DNA from: Oryzias latipes
Taxonomy: Eukaryota; Chordata; Actinopteri; Beloniformes; Adrianichthyidae
Reading direction: 5' to 3'
NCBI RefSeq assembly: GCF_002234675.1
Contig: NC_019879.2
Span: 4,212,619-4,276,618, forward strand
DNA: 64,000 nucleotides
The translations under genes and the position numbers were made by a program. A model generated the notes under the pieces. The model worked only from the letters and a program-made list of their open reading frames with translations. It made no database searches and was not told the origin of the DNA. Within the stretch, counting starts at the first letter, position 1, and every line of letters begins with the position of its first letter. This document shows positions 1 to 59,369 of the stretch, piece after piece.

Positions 1-10
1 TGTCACTCAC

Positions 11-755
11 CTTGATCCACTGCTGCGTTGTACTTCTCCAATGCCTCCGCTTGGTTCTGCTTTTTCCACAAAATCTCCCCCTCAATCCAGAATCTCCTGG
101 CTCTGCTCTCCGTTGCGAAAAGTTTGTGGACCAAGCCGCTGAGGACCACGTTGATTCTCCGCCCGTCGCCTTTGCTCAGCGCCTGCTTGCACTGTGTACA
201 GCCTCTGGTGGTGGTGGTGGAGTCCTCCTCCTCCTCCAAGCAGCGTTTGCAGAAAGTGTGTCCGCACTCCACGGTGGTGGGCTCGTGGAGCAAACACTTG
301 CACATGCGACACGAAAACAGATCCAGGGGCTCGTCCTCCTCGCAGTCTCCGTCCTCTGGGGCTCCGTCGCCACCTGAGCCGCCGGTTTTAGCGTTGAACG
401 TCGCGGGGAGACCCAGCTCTTTCTCCCGCAGAGTCCGGGCTATAGTGTCCACTAGATGGGGAAGCTCCTCTGGGTGAATTTTGCTCAGGTTGGCCGCTAT
501 GCAGTAGGAGTCGAGCGCCTCGGATATCCGGCCAGCGCGTGCCAGAGAGTCGGCCTTTCTCAGGTACAAGCCCCGATCCGGATGCTGCAGATCCGACAGC
601 TGGGAGCTGTAGATCTCCACGGCCAGGTCGTAGTCGCCCGCACGGTTAGCCTCCTCTGCTACCTCCAGCATCTCGGGGCAGATCCCGGCAGCCCCCGGGT
701 TGGAGAGCGGGTGGAGGAACTGCTCGGTGCGGTGGGATTCAACTCCCGCCTCCAT
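11..755 (-). CDS. lonrf2: LON peptidase N-terminal domain and RING finger protein, first coding exon (LONRF2 by context)
   Basis: Partial gene: only the first coding exon lies in the window, reading 755 to 11 and ending at a clean donor (CAAG then gtgagt) in phase 1 after 248 codons. Residues about 32-100 form TPR-like helices (EANRAGDYDLAVEIY, then PDRGLYLRKADSLARAGR). Residues 149-189 form a RING finger with C-x2-C, CGHTFC-x2-C and a final C-x2-C. A second TPR segment begins near residue 225 (EILWKKQNQAEALEKYNAA). This is the N-terminal plan of the LONRF1/2/3 family, putative E3 ubiquitin ligases whose LON substrate-binding domain would be encoded off the window. An in-frame ATG at 833-831 adds 26 residues; I prefer the ATG at 755-753 because the extension lacks family character. 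The paralogue is assigned from the neighbours nms, pdcl3 and tbc1d8 rather than from sequence alone; lonrf1 is the alternative. Confidence 0.85.
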
Positions 756-1289
756 GATCTTCGTTACACCGAACGACCAAAACGGTATATATTTGTCACG
801 GATAGTCTGACAGAAGCAGACAAAGTTTTCCACAGTCGGGAATTAAGATTTTCTTATTGCCATGTTTGTTAATCAGTGTTAGGCTAGAGCTGCCAGTGGA
901 AGTAGGTTAGAGTCATTTCCGATCAAATGAGAACCTTTTATAACATTTGTTGTTACGTGACAACCCAAAAAAGCCGACGAATTCTTAAAGCTAAAGAAGA
1001 AATGAGCGCTAAGGAGCTACGGGTTTCTTGAAGTTCGCCATTTTTTGTTTCTTTTGCTGGGCAACAATGTTCCATCCACAGAAAGAGTTACACTAGTGTA
1101 ACGGATTATTTTGGTTGATCCATTAGTTAAGTCCTCCCGGTTCATCAAGTAGGAAGCCCTTTTTCCACCGACTAGGCAGTAGTGACATTTTACAGTTACG
1201 ATTCCAACTAAACTCAAGCGAAGAAACTAGGAAAAATGACAAATCAATCAGTCACTTTGATCACATTTTAGCTACAGAGCACCGAGCTC

Positions 1290-11644: not shown

Positions 11645-13290
11645 TTCAGTTTCAGTTTAGTTTATTTCAAACACAAAACAAATGAGAAAGTCAGCACACA
11701 GTGGTTTAAAAGACATAAAATAATACAGCGTGCTTGGGTTGAAGAGAAAATCTTGTCTGCTCCCACCCCTTTTTACAAAACCTTATGATGTGCGTATTCA
11801 ATACGCATATTGCTATTTACAGATAGTTACAAAACATTCACAATACAATTCTGCATGGCAACTGTGCTAAAGTGACATTTTTTTTAACTAATCGTTTCTG
11901 GCCTTATACATTTCTAATAGTGACTTCTTGTAGGATTTTTTGAATATTTGTAAACTTTTGCTTTTTTTTAAATCTTCATCCAATCCATTCCATAAATCCA
12001 CACCACAATTAGATAGACACATTTTCTTTTTTGTTGTTCGAATGCACTGCTTTTTGAAATTCAGTTTTTTTCTTAGATTGTAACTCCCGTCTCTGTCTTT
12101 GAACAGTTGCTGTAAGTTTATTGGAAGTAATTTGTGTCTGGCTTTGTACATGACGAGAGCTGTTTTCAGTTTCACTAGAGCCCATATTTTCAATAAACCC
12201 GACTTTAAAAACAGAGCATTTATATGTGTCCCATAATCCACTCCATGGACAATTCGAACAGCTTTTTTTTGTAAGATATATAAACACTGTAGGTTTGTTT
12301 AATAAGTATTTCCCCAAACTTGTGCACTGTACTGTAAATATGGTAGTATTATGGATGAATATATAAGTATATTAGTAAACGTGCCTTGTGAGTGAGAGTA
12401 TGGCGCGTTTTTCCCAACACTGCTATGCTTTTGGCAAGTTTAGCTCTGACCTGCTTCATTTGTGGCCTCCAGTTTATTTTGTCGTCCAGAATTACTCCAA
12501 GGAACTTGATTTCAGTCACTCTTTCCAGAACATGATTATCAATGGCAACTTTTATTTCTAAATCTGCAGGAATGTGGCGATTTCCAAAAATCATGAATTT
12601 AGTTTTGTTAACACTGAGGGACAGTTTATTTTTGTCAAACCATTGTTTTAGTTTCCCTAATTCTGTATTTACTGTTTTTACTATTGTACAGACTATACTT
12701 GTGTCGTCTGCATATAGAAAGTATTTGAGTGTATTTGATACCAAGCGCATGTCATTGATGTTGAGGATGAACAGTATGGGACCTTATATTGACCCTTGTG
12801 GAACTCCACAGTTTAAATTTAGCAGGGATGATTTACAGTCATCCAGTTGGACAACCTGTTATTAATGTAACTGTTTAACCATTCTAATACTGGTCCTCGT
12901 ATTCCATACTTTTCCAGTTTGTTTACTAAAATGTTATGGTCAATGTGTCAAAAGCCTTTTTCAGATCGACGAACACTCCTACTGCGAACTCTTTATTGTT
13001 AGTGCCATTTATAATTTCTTTGGTTAGTTGCGTAATGGCCATGGACGTTGATCTGTTTTTTCTGAAACCATATTGATAGTCGGATATTAGTTTGTGTTTT
13101 TGTATAAAACTTTCAAGTTTTATGAGGAATACTTTTCTAGTATTTTTGAGAATTGGCAGAGTAAAGACACTGGTCTGTAGTTTCTTAGTTGGTGTTTGTC
13201 CCCTGATTTGTGTAGTGGAATTACTTTGGCTATTTTCATTTTTTGTGGAAATGTTCCTGTTTGAAAGGATAAGTTGCAAATATAGGTTAG
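11645..13290 (-). mobile_element. Truncated non-LTR retrotransposon (L2/CR1/Jockey-like)
   Basis: On the minus strand three broken frames line up in order. 13279-12926 carries the early palm (YGFRKNRSTSMAI, then FVDLKKAFDT). About 12850-12780 carries GVPQGSI followed by a stop. 12750-12349 carries the catalytic YADDTS block and KTKFMIFG. 12317-11888 carries the C-terminal part, ending in a stop near 11888. The 3' end closes with an (ACTGAA)n-type tail, read on the plus strand as tttcagtttcagtttcag near 11640-11665. The endonuclease domain is absent, so the copy is 5'-truncated, and stops and frameshifts make it inactive. Clade is judged from motif style and tail only. Confidence 0.75.
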
Positions 13291-13299
13291 TGGGTCAAC

Positions 13300-23785: not shown

Positions 23786-24060
23786 ACACAAAATCTATTT
23801 TTCATCAATTGATGCACTTTCAAAGTTTGGGGATCAGAAATTAAAGTCAGTTCTTAACTTATGTTAATTGCATATACAGCGATTATAATTATAAAGATGT
23901 TGCTCTTACCAATTAAAAACTAATAAATAAATTATTTAAATTATTTTGGAAGGTGATTTCTAACAATTTCTCCATATAAATAAAAAAATAAAATGTTTCT
24001 TAAGGTAATGTAAACAGCAAACATAAACATACAATGGTAGTCCATTGTAAGCAAAAATAT

Positions 24061-25232
24061 CTATCCATCCATCCATCCATCCATCCATGCATCCATCCAT
24101 CCATCCATCCATGCCTCCATGCCTCCATGCATCCATCCATCCATCCATCCATCCATGCATCCATCCATCCATCCATCCATGCATCCATCCATCCATGCAT
24201 CCATCCATCCATCCATCCATCCATGCCTCCATGCCTCCATGCCTCCATGCCTCCATCCATCCATGCATCCATGCATCCATCCATCCATGCATCCATCCAT
24301 CCATCCATCCATCCATCCATCCATCCATCCATCCATCCATCCATCCATCCATGCATCCATCCATCCATCCATCCATCCATGCATCCATCCATCCATCCAT
24401 TTATGCATCCATCCATGCATCCATGCATCCATCCATCCATGCATCCATCCATCCATCCATCCATCCATCCATCCATCCATTTATGCATCCATCCATGCAT
24501 CCATGCATCCATGCATCCATCCATCCATGCATCCATCCATCCATCCGTCCATCCATGCCTCCATGCATCCATCCATCCATCCATCCATCCATGCATCCAT
24601 CCATCCATCCATCCATCCATCCATCCATCCATCCATTTATGCATCCATGCATCCATCCATCCATCCATGCATCCATGCATCCATCCATCCATCCATTTAT
24701 GCATCCATCCATCCATGCATCCATCCATCCATCCATGCATCCATGCATCCATCCATCCATCGATCCATCCATCCATGCATCCATCCATCCATCCATGCAT
24801 CCATCCATCCATGCATCCATCCATCCATCCATGCATCCATCCATCCATCCATCCATCCATCCATCCATCCATCCATCCATCCATCCATCCATGCATCCAT
24901 CCATCCATCCATCCATTTATGCATCCATCCATGAATCCATCCATCCATGCATCCATCCATCCATCCATCCATCCATTTATGCATCCATCCATGCATCCAT
25001 CCATCCATCCATGCATCCATCCATCCATCCATCCATCCATCCATCCATCCATCCATCCATGCATCCATCCATCCATCCATCCATTTATGCATCCATCCAT
25101 CCATCCATCCATCCATTTATGCATCCATCCATGCATCCATGCATGCATCCATCCATCCATCCATTTATGCATCCATCCATGCATCCATCCATCCATCCAT
25201 GCATCCATCCATCCATTTATGCATCCATCCAT

Positions 25233-25268
<36 letters not shown>

Positions 25269-26033
25269 CCATGCATCCATCCATGCATCCATCCATGCAT
25301 CCATCCATCCATCCATCCACCCATGCATGCATGCATCCATCCATCCATTTATGCATCCATCCATGCATCCATCTATCCATCCATCCATCCATCCATCCAT
25401 GCATCCATCCATCCATGCATTCATCCATCCATCCATGCATCCATCCATCCATCCATCCATCCATGCATCCATCCATCCATCCATCCATCCATGCATCCAT
25501 CCATGCATCCATCCATCCATCCATCCATCCATCCACCTATGCATGCATGCATCCATCCATCCATTTATGCATCCATCCATGCATCCATCTATCCATCCAT
25601 CCATGCATCCATCCATCCATGCATCCATCTATGCATTCATCCATCCATCCATGCATCCATCCATCCATCCATCCATCCATGCATCCATCCATCCATCCAT
25701 CCATCCATCCATGCATCCATCCATGCATCCATCCATCCATCCACCTATGCATGCATGCATCCATCCATCCATTTATGCATCCATCCATGCATCCATCTAT
25801 CCATCCATCCATGCATCCATCCATCCATGCATCCATCTATGCATCCATCCATGCATCCATCCATCCATCCATCCATCCATCCATCCATCCATCCATCCAT
25901 CCATCCATCCATCCATCCATCCATCCATCCATGCATCCATCCATCCATGCATCCATCCATCCATCCATCCATCCATGCATCCATCCATGCATGCATCCAT
26001 CCATCCATTTATGCATCCATCCATCCATCCATG
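24061..26033. repeat. (CCAT)n tetranucleotide array with GCAT/TTTATGCAT interruptions and higher-order units
   Basis: About 1.97 kb is built almost wholly of ATCC units, with GCAT substitutions and recurring variants tttatgcat, gcctccat, ctatccat and cacctatgcatgcatgcat. The marker cac(c/c)tatgcatgcatgcat followed by three CCAT and tttatgcat recurs near 25317, 25533 and 25741. The spacings are 216 and 208 bases, both multiples of four, so blocks of 52-54 units have been duplicated. Neither ATCC nor GGAT repeats contain stops in most frames, which creates very long artificial open frames on both strands. Collapsed or misassembled repeats are likely at this length. Confidence 0.97.
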
Positions 26034-26599: not shown

Positions 26600-29500
26600 A
26601 TGACGGGTGTTCGACAAGTTTTTCTTCTGTTTTTGTTTGGGTTTCTCTGGTACCGAAGAACCACAGGTAAGTGAAGGAGTTTGTACGCTTTTATTAATAA
26701 ACATCTAACGACTAGTAACGATTAAAAGTATCGTTATTTAAAGTTTAATAGGGTATTATTTATTTTAATTCATAAGTGTCCCTGCTGAAATTTGCCTTTA
26801 ATGTGATATTTTAATTTGACCAAAGTAAAGAAAAACCTAAAAAAAAAATATACTGATTTTAATTAGATTAGCCTACTGTTATTAAAAACAGTGGTGGAAA
26901 CACATTTTAAAGAAAGTGACCCACCTGTAAAATATATTGGAGTTAAAGTGAATATTTCTTTTTTTTTTTAAATGAGTATAGATGTGTTTTTTGTGGAGGT
27001 CAGTCAGATACATGTATCTGGAGGGCTTTAGAGCAACAGATGATTGTTTTTTTTCTTTGTTTTTTCACTGTCAGATTGTTTATTTATATAAACATTTGGT
27101 TTGATTCATAATTGCTGCATTTAAAGACGCCTGAATGAATGTCGTCATGTAAAACTCTTTATAAGATGAGGGTAGATCTGCAAATAGGAGCAAAAATGTA
27201 AGTTGTTTTTTTTAAAGATTATTATTAGGAACATCCCATTGCCTTGTCTGGATTACAGATAATTAAAATTAAAGGTATTTTTATCCTGAGCCATTGGGTT
27301 TGCAAGTGTAGCGGGTCATGTCAAGGGTTTGGGTCTGGATAAAACTTGTTTCTGAAGCTGTACTTGAATGTGCAATAGAAAAAAAACCATTTGGGTGGGC
27401 TAAAAATATCTTAATGATAACTTGGTAAAAAAGATCAATTGATTCATTTTTTAACCCACTTATACATAAACTGATCCAAACACGGGAAATAAACCAATTT
27501 CAAAAAGTATTTAACATGTTCCAATTTATTATTTTCTCATATTTTTCAGCAAAAAATGACTAAAAACTGCAGGAAAAAAACTCAGGTTCTCATTCTTATG
27601 GGTTTTTTTCCTCTCCAGTAGAAAATCCTTATTAAAAACTTTTTTCTAGTGGAAAAAATACCGCTTTTTTTCTCCCCCAAAATCTGCCTTTTTATGTTTA
27701 CCTTAAAAATGTGTTTAAAAATTGCAAGACTCCTTCTTATTTCTCCTTTTTTTTGAAGATTTTGTATTTTATTTAATTAGAAAGTGCTTTTTGAGAAGAT
27801 TGCAGCCAGAATCTTTGGTCTTCATTTTTTGTTTGTCGTTTTTCTTCTAGAGGCAAGTCTTTTTGATCAATGGGAAGATGGCACAGCGCTGCAAAAGGTA
27901 ACAGACACTTTGTTCCCATAGCCCACGTCTATCCACACTAATATCCCTCCAGAACTGTCGGGTTCTGTCTTTACAGTCTCCATTCTGTAACGATGAACGC
28001 GCTGTTTCTCCAACATCAGCTCCATTTCTCGACAAACTCAGTGGTTAACTAACACTTTCTGCAGCTTAAAGTGCTTTTTTTGTGTATCCACAGCCTGATT
28101 TCAAGCCCAATATTAGTGTTACGCAATAAAATAAACCAGCAGTGACAGGAGGTCTGCAAAACATTGATTTTCATTATGACCAGTTTATGTTTTCCTCTAA
28201 AAAGAATTTAGATTGTGTTATTCTCTATTATGAAGCCATAAATAAATGGGTTTTCTGCAGGTGCGAGGCATCCGGAGTGATGATCTGAGTAATGTGTTGT
28301 GGAGGGACCAAAATGAGGTGAGCCAAGATGATCTGTATATCACTTATGCACTAACATGGACAGACCATAATCACCTAGACAACATAAACATTCATCCGGA
28401 GCGTTCGAGTAAAGTTTAATTGCGTGTATATTTAACTGTTGTCGGGCTGCAGGAACGGAACAAGGAGAAAAAGAGGGGCAAGGAAAGCAAAATAGGTTAT
28501 GGCACTTTAGTGAGGTTTTTTATTTATTTAGGTGACTTATTTTTGCGTTTTTGCTGTTTGTCACATTATAGTTTTAAATGCACAAGAGAGGGGATAAGAG
28601 TAAATATATAGGCTTGGTTGCATTTCTTTTCCAGAGTTCACCTGAACAGTTCTGTCTGATCCTCTGTGGTTCTGGAAGTCCCAGACATCTGAAAATATGA
28701 AAAAGATGCATTTACACGTCTGGATTAGACAACTTCTAAAAGTAGTGAGAGTTGGGCAGTTCTACGTTGAAATACTTTAGTTGGCAGTTTATCACAACCC
28801 AGCAGGAAAGACTATAACTCATTTGGACGTTTTTTTACCCCTAAAGAGTATCAAGAGGTTTTGCTTTAATTTGGCGAGTTGTGGCTGCAGTTGCTTCCAA
28901 ACATGGAGGTTTGAAGGTAGTGCTGAATGGAAAAAAGCTCGAACGTCCTGTGAGGAGAAGTTACTGGATGTGCTTGGAAGGAGATTCTGATGGATTGAGT
29001 GGCTCTAACCTGGTTAACCCTGAGGAAGAAAGGCAATCTGTTCACTTTTTCAAGACTTGAAATGTTTCTTTAAAAAAAAAAAAGTAATTTTATTGCAGAT
29101 GTTCCAGTGATTTTGGGATGGTGTCCCTGTCAAGGCAGCTGTCTACCCTTAAAGCTAGTCTTCCTGGTTGATTCTTTCTCTCCACTGTCACCTCATTCAT
29201 GCTCACTCTGACCTGAAACAGGCGTGATTTGACACATTTAATTAGTAAATATTGAATTTTTTATTAAATTACTAATGTGTTTGTTCATTTTGGTGTCTGT
29301 TTGAATAAGCGTAATTGAAAAACTATCCAAATACATTTTTAAACTTTTGAGTTCTTATTTAAAGGGTTGAAGACAGACAGAAGACTAAGATCTTTAGATT
29401 TGTTTTCCTTCTAAAATGAACTATAATGATTAGATATTGGCCCAATCAAATGATATAATGCCTTATATCTACTAGTGTAACTAACACGAAACTTCCTTTC

Positions 29501-30465
29501 CACACAGGAGCAAGTCCAGAATATTTTCAAAAGGGTAGGTTGTACCGTTTGCTGCATTAATGTGTTTTTTCTACATATTTTCCAACAATCTTTGACTTTA
29601 ACAATGTTCCCTTTTCACAGTTCCTGTTTCATTACTCCAAAGCCCGCAACTCTCTTGGAGCGGTACAACAAGAGGTCAGTAGCAAACGATGAAACGACAG
29701 TATTTTTGATCCATCGTGTTAATGAATTGTGTTTAAAAGGCTTAAGCTAACTTGCCACATTTTAAGAAAAACCAAAGATGTAACTGATGCTTCCACATTT
29801 CACCTGCGTCCCTCTTCTTCCTCCTGCAGTCTCACTCCGTTCACCCTCTGATGCGACTCTCACCAAAGCTCTCTCAGAGAAGAAAGAAGAAGGTGGTACT
29901 TCTGGTGAGAATGTTCCCAATACTTCAGCATTTACCACATCCAAGTCAGGATGGAAAAACCTGACATTTATGAGTATGTAAACACAATCTCAACACCTAC
30001 AAAAACATGAATATTGGAGGTGTTGAGAGTAAATACCTTTAGTTGCAAAACTTCATAAACAGGAAACCTCTAAACTAAAATGCTTTCCAGCTGACTTTGA
30101 AAATAAACTATTCAGAATTTAGACTCACCTTTAAATGCTCCAGTTTTACTTTTAGAACTTCAATTTCTTTTCTTTTTTCTTCAAATTCCTCCACCCCTTG
30201 TATGAAATTTGTGAAATTTCCTCATATTTGACCTTAATTGATTAATAAAAAGAAATATGGAGAAATTATGAATAGCTTTCACCCTACAGACTTGACACTA
30301 TTGCTCTTTGCCACCTTTTCAGGTAGAAAAGGGTAATTACGTCTAAGCTTTACACATCACTTAAAAAGCCATCACTGAATGTGTTCACTTGGTGCGCAGA
30401 CTAATCTTTTTCCACTCTTTTTAATTAAACAGAAGATTCGAGGCCTGCCGGAGGGGATGTTGTAA
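26600..30465 (+). CDS. nms: Neuromedin S-type neuropeptide precursor, apparently without the FRPRN-amide core
   Basis: Seven coding exons with clean GT/AG sites and consistent phase: 26600-26666, 27851-27897, 28261-28317, 29508-29534, 29621-29674, 29830-29904 and 30433-30465. Exon 1 encodes a signal peptide (MTGVRQVFLLFLFGFLWYRR). Exon 4 ends in IFKR, a dibasic cleavage site. Exons 5-6 encode a 34-residue peptide starting FLFHYSKARN and containing VHPLMRLSPKLSQ, followed by a basic RRKKK site. This is the diagnostic NMU/NMS precursor-related peptide (NURP/NSRP). The secreted precursor would feed peptides into the regulated pathway. After RRKKK the reading frame gives only VVLL, then KIRGLPEGML and a stop. 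No FLFRPRN-G amidation block is seen up to 30900. nms is chosen over nmu because pdcl3 and tbc1d8 follow, as in human 2q11.2. The last exon is the least certain; an alternative acceptor near 30321 is possible. Confidence 0.82.
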
Positions 30466-30594
30466 GGAAAAGAAAAAAAAAAAAAAAATCGAAAGCGAGA
30501 TTATTTTTGAAGAAAAGCAGCTGGATGATCAACTGAAGACAAGCCATATGCAGCATCTCCGGCTCCTCCTTCCAGATGGAAACAACTTTTCCTT

Positions 30595-30797
30595 AATAAA
30601 TTGTGTGTAAAGATGGAAAAAAACAAAACAGAACTGCACTGCCATGACTGCCATGCGTGTTCATGCTTCCTAACGCCACAGTTGTAGCAATGAGGAAGAC
30701 TCTGGTAGCGCTGCCTTGAAATGAGATTGGCGACAAAACACAAGTTGTAAATAATTTTTCAGCAAGTCCTTTATAATCAGCAGTGATACCAAATAAA
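30595..30797 (+). terminator. nms polyadenylation signals
   Basis: Two canonical AATAAA hexamers, at 30595-30600 and 30792-30797, lie 130 and 330 bases after the nms stop and before the convergent pdcl3 3' end. The tail-to-tail gap between the two stops is under 700 bases. Confidence 0.55.
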
Positions 30798-31132
30798 GAG
30801 CATTTAGGAAAAATATAATTAAGGCAAAGAAAAGGTGAATTCAATGTTAATGTATATTTTTTTGTGACAAAACTGTCATGTTATTAAAAAAAAATGACAA
30901 TTTATGTTTGGTGGCTCTCTCAGCACATGTTTACGACAAAGTGTACTGACAAACACGAGAGGAGAAATTTGGCAACACGGGGACTCTCTCAACAAGTGCC
31001 TTAGAGCAGGTTGATCGCCACCTACAGTTAGAAATATGAACTCCATGGTGAAGGCCACGCCCTTTCGCCTCTGCTCCAATGCTGCCAAACCCCATGCGGT
31101 TCCCTCTGGTTTGTTTCACGACTCTTTCCCGC

Positions 31133-34100
31133 TTATTCGTCGTCCTCCTCAGAGTCACCGTCCTTCCGTGTAGGAAGCGAGTTCCTGATTGATGACATCA
31201 ACTTGTCTTCTATTTGTTTCCTCGGGTTCTCCTCCAATTCTGTCTTCACCGCCCCGGATTCAGAAAGCCTCCACTCCAGCTCTGGATGAATTACAAAAAA
31301 ACATAATAAACATGTGATGGGACATGTCACGGGATAGACTCCGGTGACCCCGAAAGGGAACAAATGGATTACAAAGTGAATGAATAATAAACATGAACAA
31401 AGTCTAAACGCATTTTCTGCGTAAAAAGCAAGACAAACAAATGTTCTAGAATTATCCACATTTAAATTGAACATGTCCTAAAATAATGAGAATCATATTT
31501 AAGGACACTTTTTTGAAATAAACCAAGTTGCCAAACGTTAAAAGGACATTTGGCAAAATCCCAAACTAAGGTTACAAAACCCAAAAGTCTTTAAAACTTT
31601 ATTTAGAAAAACTGACATGACAATTAGCATAATCACCAAAGCGGTGAGTATTATTCACAGATGTTTGACATCCCACTAAAGGCTCACACACAAACAATAT
31701 TCTGAGAAATATTTGGAAATAACCATTGATGAGAGCTGTGGCAGTGTTTTAGCTACTGCTTACCTTCCACTTTGAGGTTCATGCCTCCAAACACCAGAGG
31801 ACCGATGAACTGCGCCTTCATCTCCCCTTCAAAGTAGACGAATATAGTGGGCAGGTTGCGGTCGGGGTAGTTTGGGATGCAAGTGGTGGAGATGGACTTG
31901 AGGAACTTTGTCTGGGGAAATTTTCGGGCCAGCATGTTCAGGTGCTGATTGATGAGGGTGCAGAGGGGGATGCTGGGGGAGAAAAAAAAAGAAGAAAAGG
32001 TTGCTTTAATGTTGAACACAATTTTAAAAAAAAGGAAAAAAATGCTGTTTAGATGCAGAATTTTATTCATAATTGGATAAAAAGATCAACGTCTAATATC
32101 ACTTTACTGTCAATATAATGATTCCCAAAAACAACAACGATGCAAAATTGAAAAGATGTTTGAGCATTTAGTTTCTAAAACAGTTTTAACACATAATGGG
32201 TGGTAAAAAAGAGGGTTATTATTATTTAAAGACTTATGTTAGCTGGAGCTTTGAAGATTTTTTTCCAAATGTTGCAGCCATCTGTGAGGTTTAGGTAGAG
32301 TTTGGATGCGAAGCAGGAACATCATTGAAGGCTCGCACTAAAATACTGTATTTTTACGACTACGGGGCGCCTTACTTAAAAGTCGTAAATTTTCTCCGAA
32401 ATGTATGGAGCGCCCTTTGGTAAAGAGGACGGAGAAGAGGACAGCATGAGAACAGTAAGGAGGGCAGTGAGGACGTGAAAGAAGACCCCCCCCCCCCGAA
32501 TAGTACAAAAATGCATGTGCAAAAGGCATGTGCATTAAGCAGAACAGCATCGTTTTGGTAACCCTGAAAATGCAAAGAGATACACTCATATCAGTTTAAA
32601 CAGCAAGCTGTCACACTTTTACTAAGACTGGGAGGAAGCGCTGGGCGAGTTACACCACAATTTGTGAATGGATTGTAGATGCTTGGGCTAACGAGTGTTG
32701 AGGGATGAGTGTGGGTGTTTGTGGAGCGCATACAGCGCGGTCAGTCAACGTTTTGGAGTTGAGAAAAGAAATAAAGAATGTTCCTCTGAAAGAACTGAGA
32801 CTGGCAACTGAGACGGACTCTGACGATGACAGACGGGAAGCTGGCGTGTTTGATAGAAATGTAGCCCAGCTGTTCATTTAGGATACAGAAGATGAGGACT
32901 TTGATGGATTTTTGGATGCTGATTGAGGACGGAAAAAATGTAAAAATAAATCACAACCAACTCAGTTTTGCTCCAGCTGCCTTTTTAAAAACACACACTA
33001 GCATGGATGTTTTACCAGTATGTTTGAACGTCCTCGCGGCGTGCGATTTGTAGGTGTTAAATACAGAAAAATCACCCAAAACTGAAACTGCACCCCAGTG
33101 CGCCCTATGGTCATGAAAATACGATGTCCTACAAAGAACTTTTAAATACAACTTTCAAGCCATCGGATATGGTGAAGGTAATCCTGCTAAACTAGTAGCA
33201 TAACAGATTATGTCTTTGGTTTTGAAAGTCTCTCGTCTTTCATTAGAAGCTGAAAAGTCTTATAGAAAAATCAAACTGTTAAAAATGAGCAAACATCTAA
33301 AGCAGGCGTCGGGAACCTATGGCTCGCGAGCCATATATGGCTCTTTTGATGGTACTGCGTTTGTTGCGGTCTACAGTAACCAGAATAAAGAACCTTAAAA
33401 GAGGTTAAGTCTCCGTGCCTCCGTGTGGGAAAGGGACACTACATTATTGTATGGCTCTTTCGAAATTACATTTAAAAATATGTGGCGTTTATGGCTATCT
33501 CAGCCAAAAAGGTTCCCGACCCCTGATCTAAATTTTAAGCAAACCTTCAAAATCTCTTCTATAAAAAACAAAAAGTAAATTTTGACTGAAAAGAGGAAAT
33601 CACCAAAGTAATTTTACTAGGCAGACAGTGATTACTGCATTTAGACGTTTTACAAACTGGTATTTAACAAGGAAGTACTTTAAGTGTTTTAAATCCAATA
33701 CTAAAGTTGAAAAAGGAATTTTAAAAAATAGTTTAAAAAAAAAGAAAAAATACATTTTAAAAAGATCCAGTGGCAAATATTCTGAAATTATAATTGGATT
33801 TTTTTTTTAAAAGTATTTTTCCAACAGCTTCCAACAATCTAATTTCCCAAATCAAATCTAGCAAAATTCATGTAAGCACTCCTGCTTCTTTCTATAGTAA
33901 AATTTTGCTTTTTATATCACAAAAGACCAGTTTTTCATTGTTGGCACGTTTTTGTATGCCCGTGTATTTAATCTCAATCGTCCTTAGTCTTTTCCCAGCA
34001 TGCATGCGTCTGTATGTGCTTTCATGAGACCCCCCTCACCCACAGAAATGCCCAGGGGTTTGTTGGTTTTGTTCCCCTGTTGCTTTTGCTGGCTTACCCC

Positions 34101-35551
34101 TGTTTGTAGAGGTGCAGCACCACCCAGATGCCGTCTCCAGCCTTGTTGACCTCTTTGACATAATCCTGTCCAGAGATTTCCCCCAGTTCCCCGAACACGT
34201 TCTTTAACTGAGTTGCTTTCCATTCTGCAAGACGCTTCTGTCTGGAAGGAGAGACGGCTTCCATCAGTTCACTTACAGACGGTGGGTCCCAAAGCGCAAA
34301 CAGCTTCACCCCAAAGGCTCACATGGCCGACCCTTTGAGACGGCAGAATTTCCCCAGAGAAGGGTTTTAGTTCAAAAACATTTCAGCAAGTTAACAATTC
34401 AAATCACTCAGAGTTCACACAATGAGTGCAAAAGAGACTCTGATCGATGGGAAATTTGTAAAAGGGTTAATCAAATGTAAAAACAACAAAAAGATAGCTT
34501 CAAATAAAAGAGTAGAAATAGATATGCAACTATACCAACCCCAACCACGAAACAAAGGAATGCTTTTGACCCACTGATATGATCTGGACCATAAATCCCA
34601 GTCTATGAGGTGCTGCAATTATTAGCTCTGTGTCAGTCTGAAAGTTTGGTGAAGGCTGCGTGATTCCTGAGACTAACCTGAGATCCGCTCCACCTCTGCT
34701 TACCTGTACATCTCAATGGCAGCCTCATCATCCTCACCAAACTCATCTTCATTTTCCTCCAGTTCGTCTAGTGTCATGTTTTCATATGTTTTGACTAGTC
34801 AAAGACAAAAAAAATAAAATTAAAAGGGACAACAATTTTCTGCTGATTATGTTTTGGGAATTATATGATTTTTGTTGGTTGAAAATGTTAGAGAAACATG
34901 AATTTTAAGGACTAGGGTGGTAGTTTCGAAGCATTCTGTTAGATCCAACTATCCTAATTCTAATTTATCTGTCTTACCAACAGACTGTTGCTGCTGCTGG
35001 ACAGCCAAAGTGTCCTCTTCTTCATCTTTAGGAACCTCTTTGGGGGGAAGAATTCCTTTTTTCCTCAAGATATCATTCCACTCGGTGTCTTCATTTGGAT
35101 CCTGGAAAAACAAAATGTGTATATATATGACATAATCACATAGTTTCATACGCCTCTGCTATACGGATTAAACAATCTTTAGAATAAACAGGATATGACA
35201 TCAAGAAGAGAGTTAAGAAAACTGGACCTTTGCTGCTAATATTAACACACACACACGAATCTTAAACTCTTATGGAGGCACCTTTACAAAATGTATTATT
35301 TGTACTTCGAACTAAATTAAACAACTTTATTAGTATAATGTTGGGGTTCAAATTCAGAGGGGAAAAAGGGGAAATAAAAATTATTCAGGAAGATGAGGAC
35401 ACAAAACGTGTAATACGCCCGTCTCCATTCAAACCCCTCCTCAATGTGTTCACAAATAATTAACCCCACTGGTATATTTTAGTTTCGCGGCTTCGCTCAG
35501 AGACGTACACCAAAGTATTACAGTAAATAAAATAGTTTTACCAACCTGCAT
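31133..35551 (-). CDS. pdcl3: Phosducin-like protein 3
   Basis: Six coding exons on the minus strand join in frame to 240 residues, the usual family length: 35551-35546 (ATGCAG), 35101-34978, 34794-34704, 34241-34098, 31972-31764 and 31281-31133. The protein opens [20 protein letters not shown], has an acidic linker ([16 protein letters not shown]), then a coiled region ([20 protein letters not shown]). The thioredoxin-like domain follows from about residue 85 ([18 protein letters not shown], then [17 protein letters not shown]), and the acidic tail ends SEEDDE. Known family role: cytosolic co-chaperone of the CCT/TRiC chaperonin in actin and tubulin folding, and modulator of VEGFR2 stability. 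No CxxC redox pair is present, as expected for phosducin-like proteins. The 2.1 kb intron between exons 4 and 5 carries transposon insertions. It is transcribed toward nms. Confidence 0.95.
32344..33125. mobile_element. pogo/Tigger-like DNA transposon relic in a pdcl3 intron
   Basis: The left end reads tgtatttttacgactacggg followed by gcgcc. The right end reads tgcgccctatggtcatgaaa followed by atacg, an imperfect inverted copy. Inside, broken plus-strand frames resemble the C-terminal part of a pogo-type transposase: [21 protein letters not shown], then [14 protein letters not shown], an acidic tail. Most of the transposase is deleted, so it cannot move itself. A 9-C tract lies at about 32489-32497. 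Confidence 0.6.
33303..33525. mobile_element. hAT MITE in a pdcl3 intron
   Basis: A 223 bp element starts CAGGCGTCGGGAACC and ends GGTTCCCGACCCCTG, 14 of 15 bases inverted-identical. It is flanked by atctaaag and atctaaat, an 8 bp target duplication with one mismatch. The short internal frame is not a gene. Confidence 0.85.

Positions 35552-40325: not shown

Positions 40326-59369
<19,044 letters not shown>

Follow-up and report, generated by a model that had tools for sequence, protein, structure and literature searches.

The nms orthologue of medaka (Oryzias latipes) has very probably been kept as a prohormone gene for a 34-residue NSRP (NMS precursor-related peptide; NMS-RP or Nmsrp in fishes) after losing the part that encodes the amidated FLFRPRN peptide. 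The gene lies in a 64-kb stretch of DNA, here called the window (C21:4212619-4276618), and the genome searched comprised 734,051,031 bases in 25 contigs.

A seven-exon model was built from the sequence alone on the forward strand between positions 26600 and 30465 of the window (Table 1). The frame is open throughout, all introns are of the GT-AG type, and two alternative donors of exon 6 (29892 and 29904) give two precursor lengths, with a coding sequence of 348 or 360 bases including the stop codon, corresponding to 115 or 119 residues. A candidate extra exon at 28453-28495 (AG...GT, ERNKEKKRGKESKI) was dropped from the model because its length has one base over and the frame would break. The precursor consists, in order, of a hydrophobic leader, a KR site at residues 65-66, the 34-residue peptide FLFHYSKARNSLGAVQQESHSVHPLMRLSPKLSQ, an RRKKK site, and the tail (VVLL)KIRGLPEGML before the stop. 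The leader is a presumed signal peptide; its hydrophobic stretch VFLLFLFGFL has a Kyte-Doolittle mean of 3.02 and lies just ahead of a further RR pair at residues 19-20. Exactly 34 residues separate KR from RRKKK. Poly(A)-type signals were located 3' of the stop codon at 30595, 30792, and 30883. The 119-residue protein used as a query against Pfam matched no family. Upstream, an ATCC-type tetranucleotide is repeated in tandem over 2 kb (24059-26032, 87% matches), and the array ends 568 bases 5' of the start codon.

Table 1. Exons of the nms model and neighbouring features, in positions of the window
Feature	Position	Strand	Remarks
nms exon 1	26600..26666	+	Contains the start codon and the presumed signal peptide (hydrophobic leader); donor CAG/GTAAGT
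nms exon 2	27851..27897	+	AG acceptor, GT donor; frame kept
nms exon 3	28261..28317	+	AG acceptor, GT donor; frame kept
nms exon 4	29508..29534	+	EQVQNIFKR, KR cleavage site at end; donor AGG/GTAGGT
nms exon 5	29621..29674	+	First half of NSRP, FLFHYSKARNSLGAVQQE; matched by genome search with the peptide
nms exon 6	29830..29904 (or ..29892)	+	Second half of NSRP, SHSVHPLMRLSPKLSQ, and RRKKK; matched by genome search with the peptide
nms exon 7	30433..30465	+	Acceptor TTTTTAATTAAACAG; KIRGLPEGML, TAA at 30463-30465; frame closes before any NMS core
pdcl3-like gene (phosducin-like 3), convergent	31136..35158	-	Open-frame limits; exons partly placed
RING-finger open frame	8-842	-	One RING model over the Pfam cut-off, TPR matches below
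GRAM and RabGAP-TBC exons	48352-56400	+	GRAM: one match over, one under the Pfam cut-off

As far as the DNA tells, the FRPRN-G core is missing between the nms frame and the next gene. FRPRN did not occur in the six frames of the window, and the degenerate pattern [FYLWIMV][RK]P[RK][NQDSH] gave three matches there (565 +, 4236 +, and 48498 -), all outside the nms gene and none reading FRPRN. In the interval 29893-31100, which runs from the shorter end of exon 6 towards the next gene, neither an unsplit [FY]RPRNG nor a core interrupted by a GT-AG intron longer than 40 bases was present. Nor did this interval hold a relic of the FLFRPRN core above chance; its best FLFRPRNGR-like stretch scored 17/50 and was equalled or beaten by 85 of 300 dinucleotide shuffles. 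The mark of NMUR-ligand precursors, a C-terminal FLFRPRN with an amidation Gly after it, was thus not seen, in searches that are without a positive control because nmu was not found in the same genome. The original prediction had described a KR site, a 34-residue peptide, RRKKK, and a frame ending KIRGLPEGML, with no Phe/Tyr-Arg-Pro-Arg-Asn downstream; the exon model reproduced each of these elements and their coordinates, the pattern and split-core searches agreed with the absence, and its conclusion that the locus had dropped the NMUR ligand and survived as a gene for an NSRP-type peptide is supported and agrees with the sequence.

It is very unlikely that an FRPRN exon was missed, whether as an unusual alternative exon, as a distant 3' exon past pdcl3, or through an assembly error. 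The core may be split by an intron, and absence of an unsplit core is by itself weak proof, because the same core patterns also missed nmu in this genome. Against a missed exon stand the lack of any GT-AG split core in the interval and of FRPRN in the window, as well as the order of features, in which the stop codon and the poly(A)-type signals precede the convergent pdcl3-like gene. The grouper is reportedly a case of the same loss.

A recognizable nmu was not found in the genome by the core patterns, rat NURP, the Pfam NMU model, or a scan of one exoc1-like region. The pattern F[RS]P[RS]NG gave 24 matches, none with [FY]-L/F-[FY]-R-P-R-N-G and a basic residue after it. The single match of a second core pattern, F-S-P-R-N-G, was a site already among these 24; a third pattern gave 12 matches, in none of which RPRN was followed by G and a basic residue, and a fourth gave none. 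All 26 matches of a further core pattern were inspected, and RPRN was present in 0 of the 26. The Pfam NMU model, which has 25 positions only, matched the genome five times (E 0.52 to 7.2); three of the matches were over the curated cut-off, and none of these three contained FRPRN-G. The best of the five (GYFLFR, then LCLKK) and the second (GYFLFRPRTSP) were taken by eye for chance or repeat. Across 14 control genomes, the same model had matches in two and matches over the cut-off in none. Rat NURP had no match in the genome, an outcome rated uninformative by the search tool itself. A search with the Sec3 domain gave two exoc1-like matches, on C4 and C11, and motifs were scanned near the former within 100 kb only (C4:60001-160000), among the best rows per motif. 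The best listed FLFHYSK-like stretch there, FIFHYSQ (C4:62134, minus strand, 34/40), is not immediately preceded by AG and shows no VHPL within the following bases that were read, and was rejected as NURP. An LFG..GYFLF(RP) context was common to several places in the genome, C4:83159 (minus strand) among them, which by eye appeared to be copies of a dispersed repeat mimicking the NMU motif GYFLFRP. The NMU core had no match in the PDB. The failure to find nmu probably reflects the limits of short-motif searches rather than true absence; neither presence nor absence of nmu is claimed for this genome, in which an NMUR ligand may be encoded elsewhere.

A decaying pseudogene whose frame has stayed open by chance is a most unlikely account of the locus. 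The loss of the defining hormone core and the very short last exon would suit decay; they are opposed by a model whose seven exons are joined at GT-AG sites and whose 348 or 360 bases are free of frameshifts and internal stops, by the retention of both cleavage sites with the 34-residue spacing, and by the response of the gene in other teleosts, since food deprivation raised hypothalamic NMS mRNA in the grouper and zebrafish, according to the account in Volkoff 2016 (PMC5126056).

The identity of the peptide was assessed by comparison with the N-terminal sequence of NURP purified from rat (Mori 2017, PMC5585327), to which the 34-mer was identical in 17 of 32 columns (pairwise BLASTP E 1e-9). 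The FLFHYSK start and the VHPL motif are common to the 34-mer and NURP33/36 of prepro-NMU. By chance, FLFHYSK would be expected about 0.00016 times in six frames of 64 kb of independent bases. A whole-genome search with the 34-mer returned both nms exons of the window and one weak match elsewhere (C14, E 3.48), the surroundings of which were read by eye as a Tc1/mariner-like mobile element and which was discarded. The locus has what is looked for in an nms-type gene, namely a hydrophobic leader, a KR-flanked NSRP/NURP-type peptide and then a basic site, in a PDCL3 and not a PDCL2 neighbourhood. It also retains the 34-residue peptide with the mature Nms core gone, which is said to be the mark of teleost NMS-RP genes.

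The neighbouring protein matched Pfam Phosducin (2.3e-10), and a genome search with one of the pdcl3-like exons found the window as the sole locus at E <= 0.001. In humans, NMS adjoins PDCL3. It is scarcely credible that the gene is nmu, or an additional copy of nmu, instead of nms: the 34-mer does resemble rat NURP well, which was the peptide used for comparison, but the neighbouring protein had PDCL3 as its best PDB match (E 1.2e-95, 322.6 bits), while a 118-residue chain labelled PDCL2 reached 156.3 bits, chains whose lengths differ and whose scores are not strictly comparable, and the GRAM and RabGAP-TBC exons further along fit TBC1D8, which lies near human NMS, so that they may represent tbc1d8. 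NURP shares its precursor with NMU, whereas the window gene adjoins a pdcl3-like gene and not pdcl2 and clock. The locus is most likely nms, judging from its PDCL3-like neighbour, as opposed to the order around Nmu in the mouse, where a described deletion contains, in this sequence, Clock, Pdcl2, Nmu, and Exoc1 (PMC4562154).

For the medaka nms product, processing and action can be proposed by analogy with mammalian NSRP and NURP and with peptide injections in fish. Through its leader the precursor would enter the secretory pathway, cleavage after KR and at RRKKK would be the work of proprotein convertases, and a carboxypeptidase would remove the basic residues. The secreted free-acid 34-mer would be the main candidate hormone and may signal through a receptor other than NMUR1 and NMUR2. 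Mammalian prepro-NMS likewise has a leader, KR, a 34-residue NSRP, and a basic site (NSRP34 and NSRP37 in Mori 2017, PMC5585327); there the amidated FLFRPRN peptide follows downstream, whereas here a tail of ten residues (fourteen with the longer exon 6) leads to the stop. NURP33 and NURP36 have been purified from rat brain, in which NSRP immunoreactivity is also present (Mori 2017, PMC5585327). We infer a receptor other than NMUR1/2 because rat NURP36 and NSRP37 did not activate rat NMUR1 or NMUR2 in the same report (PMC5585327), and such a receptor was also proposed in a 2021 review (PMC8283259). The separate receptor suggested in the original prediction is therefore an idea already in print and agrees with the inactivity of rat NSRP37 at NMUR1 and NMUR2, but in the accessible text of both sources (PMC5585327 and PMC8283259) no receptor is named for it and the receptor for NSRP/NURP is given as unknown.

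Results from rats speak against a strong hormone role: injection of NSRP37 did not cause the release of any anterior pituitary hormone that was assayed (Mori 2017, PMC5585327), and NSRP left food intake unaffected and had weak effects on temperature and activity, weaker than those of NURP, as summarized in the review (PMC8283259). In zebrafish and grouper, injection of the species-specific NMS-RP increased expression of NPY and orexin (Volkoff 2016, PMC5126056).

The NSRP-only form of nms in teleosts is probably already known rather than new. In the grouper, Li et al. 2015 reportedly described an nms proprotein without typical mature Nms in which a putative 34-residue peptide was retained, as is seen in the medaka gene, with a peptide of equal length. 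According to Volkoff 2016 (PMC5126056), an NMS-related protein has been described from the zebrafish (Chen et al. 2016) and from the orange-spotted grouper (Li et al. 2015), and the nms gene there yields an NMS-related peptide; both are species other than medaka, and the likeness is one of description. Loss of mature Nms in teleosts is unstated in the accessible text of Volkoff 2016 (PMC5126056) and of the other fish NMS/NSRP literature searched. The judgement that the form is known rests on that review and on what the grouper study reportedly states, taken together. On whether the finding had been published for teleosts, a point left open by the original prediction, NMS-RP itself is thus in print (PMC5126056), and the loss of mature Nms is reportedly so for the grouper. 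In African cichlids, a survey of prohormones records a single gene each for NMS and NMU (PMC4992253), and a clownfish survey names NMU isoforms and, in its accessible text, has no term that starts with NMS (PMC7067429).

With rather more doubt than confidence, teleost nms may be read as a hormone gene that has NSRP as its single product and a receptor of its own, by which fishes would separate NSRP from NMUR signalling. If this were so, knockout of nms in medaka or zebrafish would expose the function of NSRP with no NMUR ligand removed. An NSRP-only gene is a clean genetic handle for the receptor search. That opportunity is already given by the published grouper and zebrafish work, to which the medaka locus adds one more species.

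Among the other features of the window, the RING-finger frame may be lonrf2, LONRF2 being part of the human NMS neighbourhood. The GRAM exon had no match in the PDB. On the minus strand at 11891-13294, open frames with a YADD motif at 12714 resemble, by eye, pieces of a reverse transcriptase and probably belong to a degraded retroelement.
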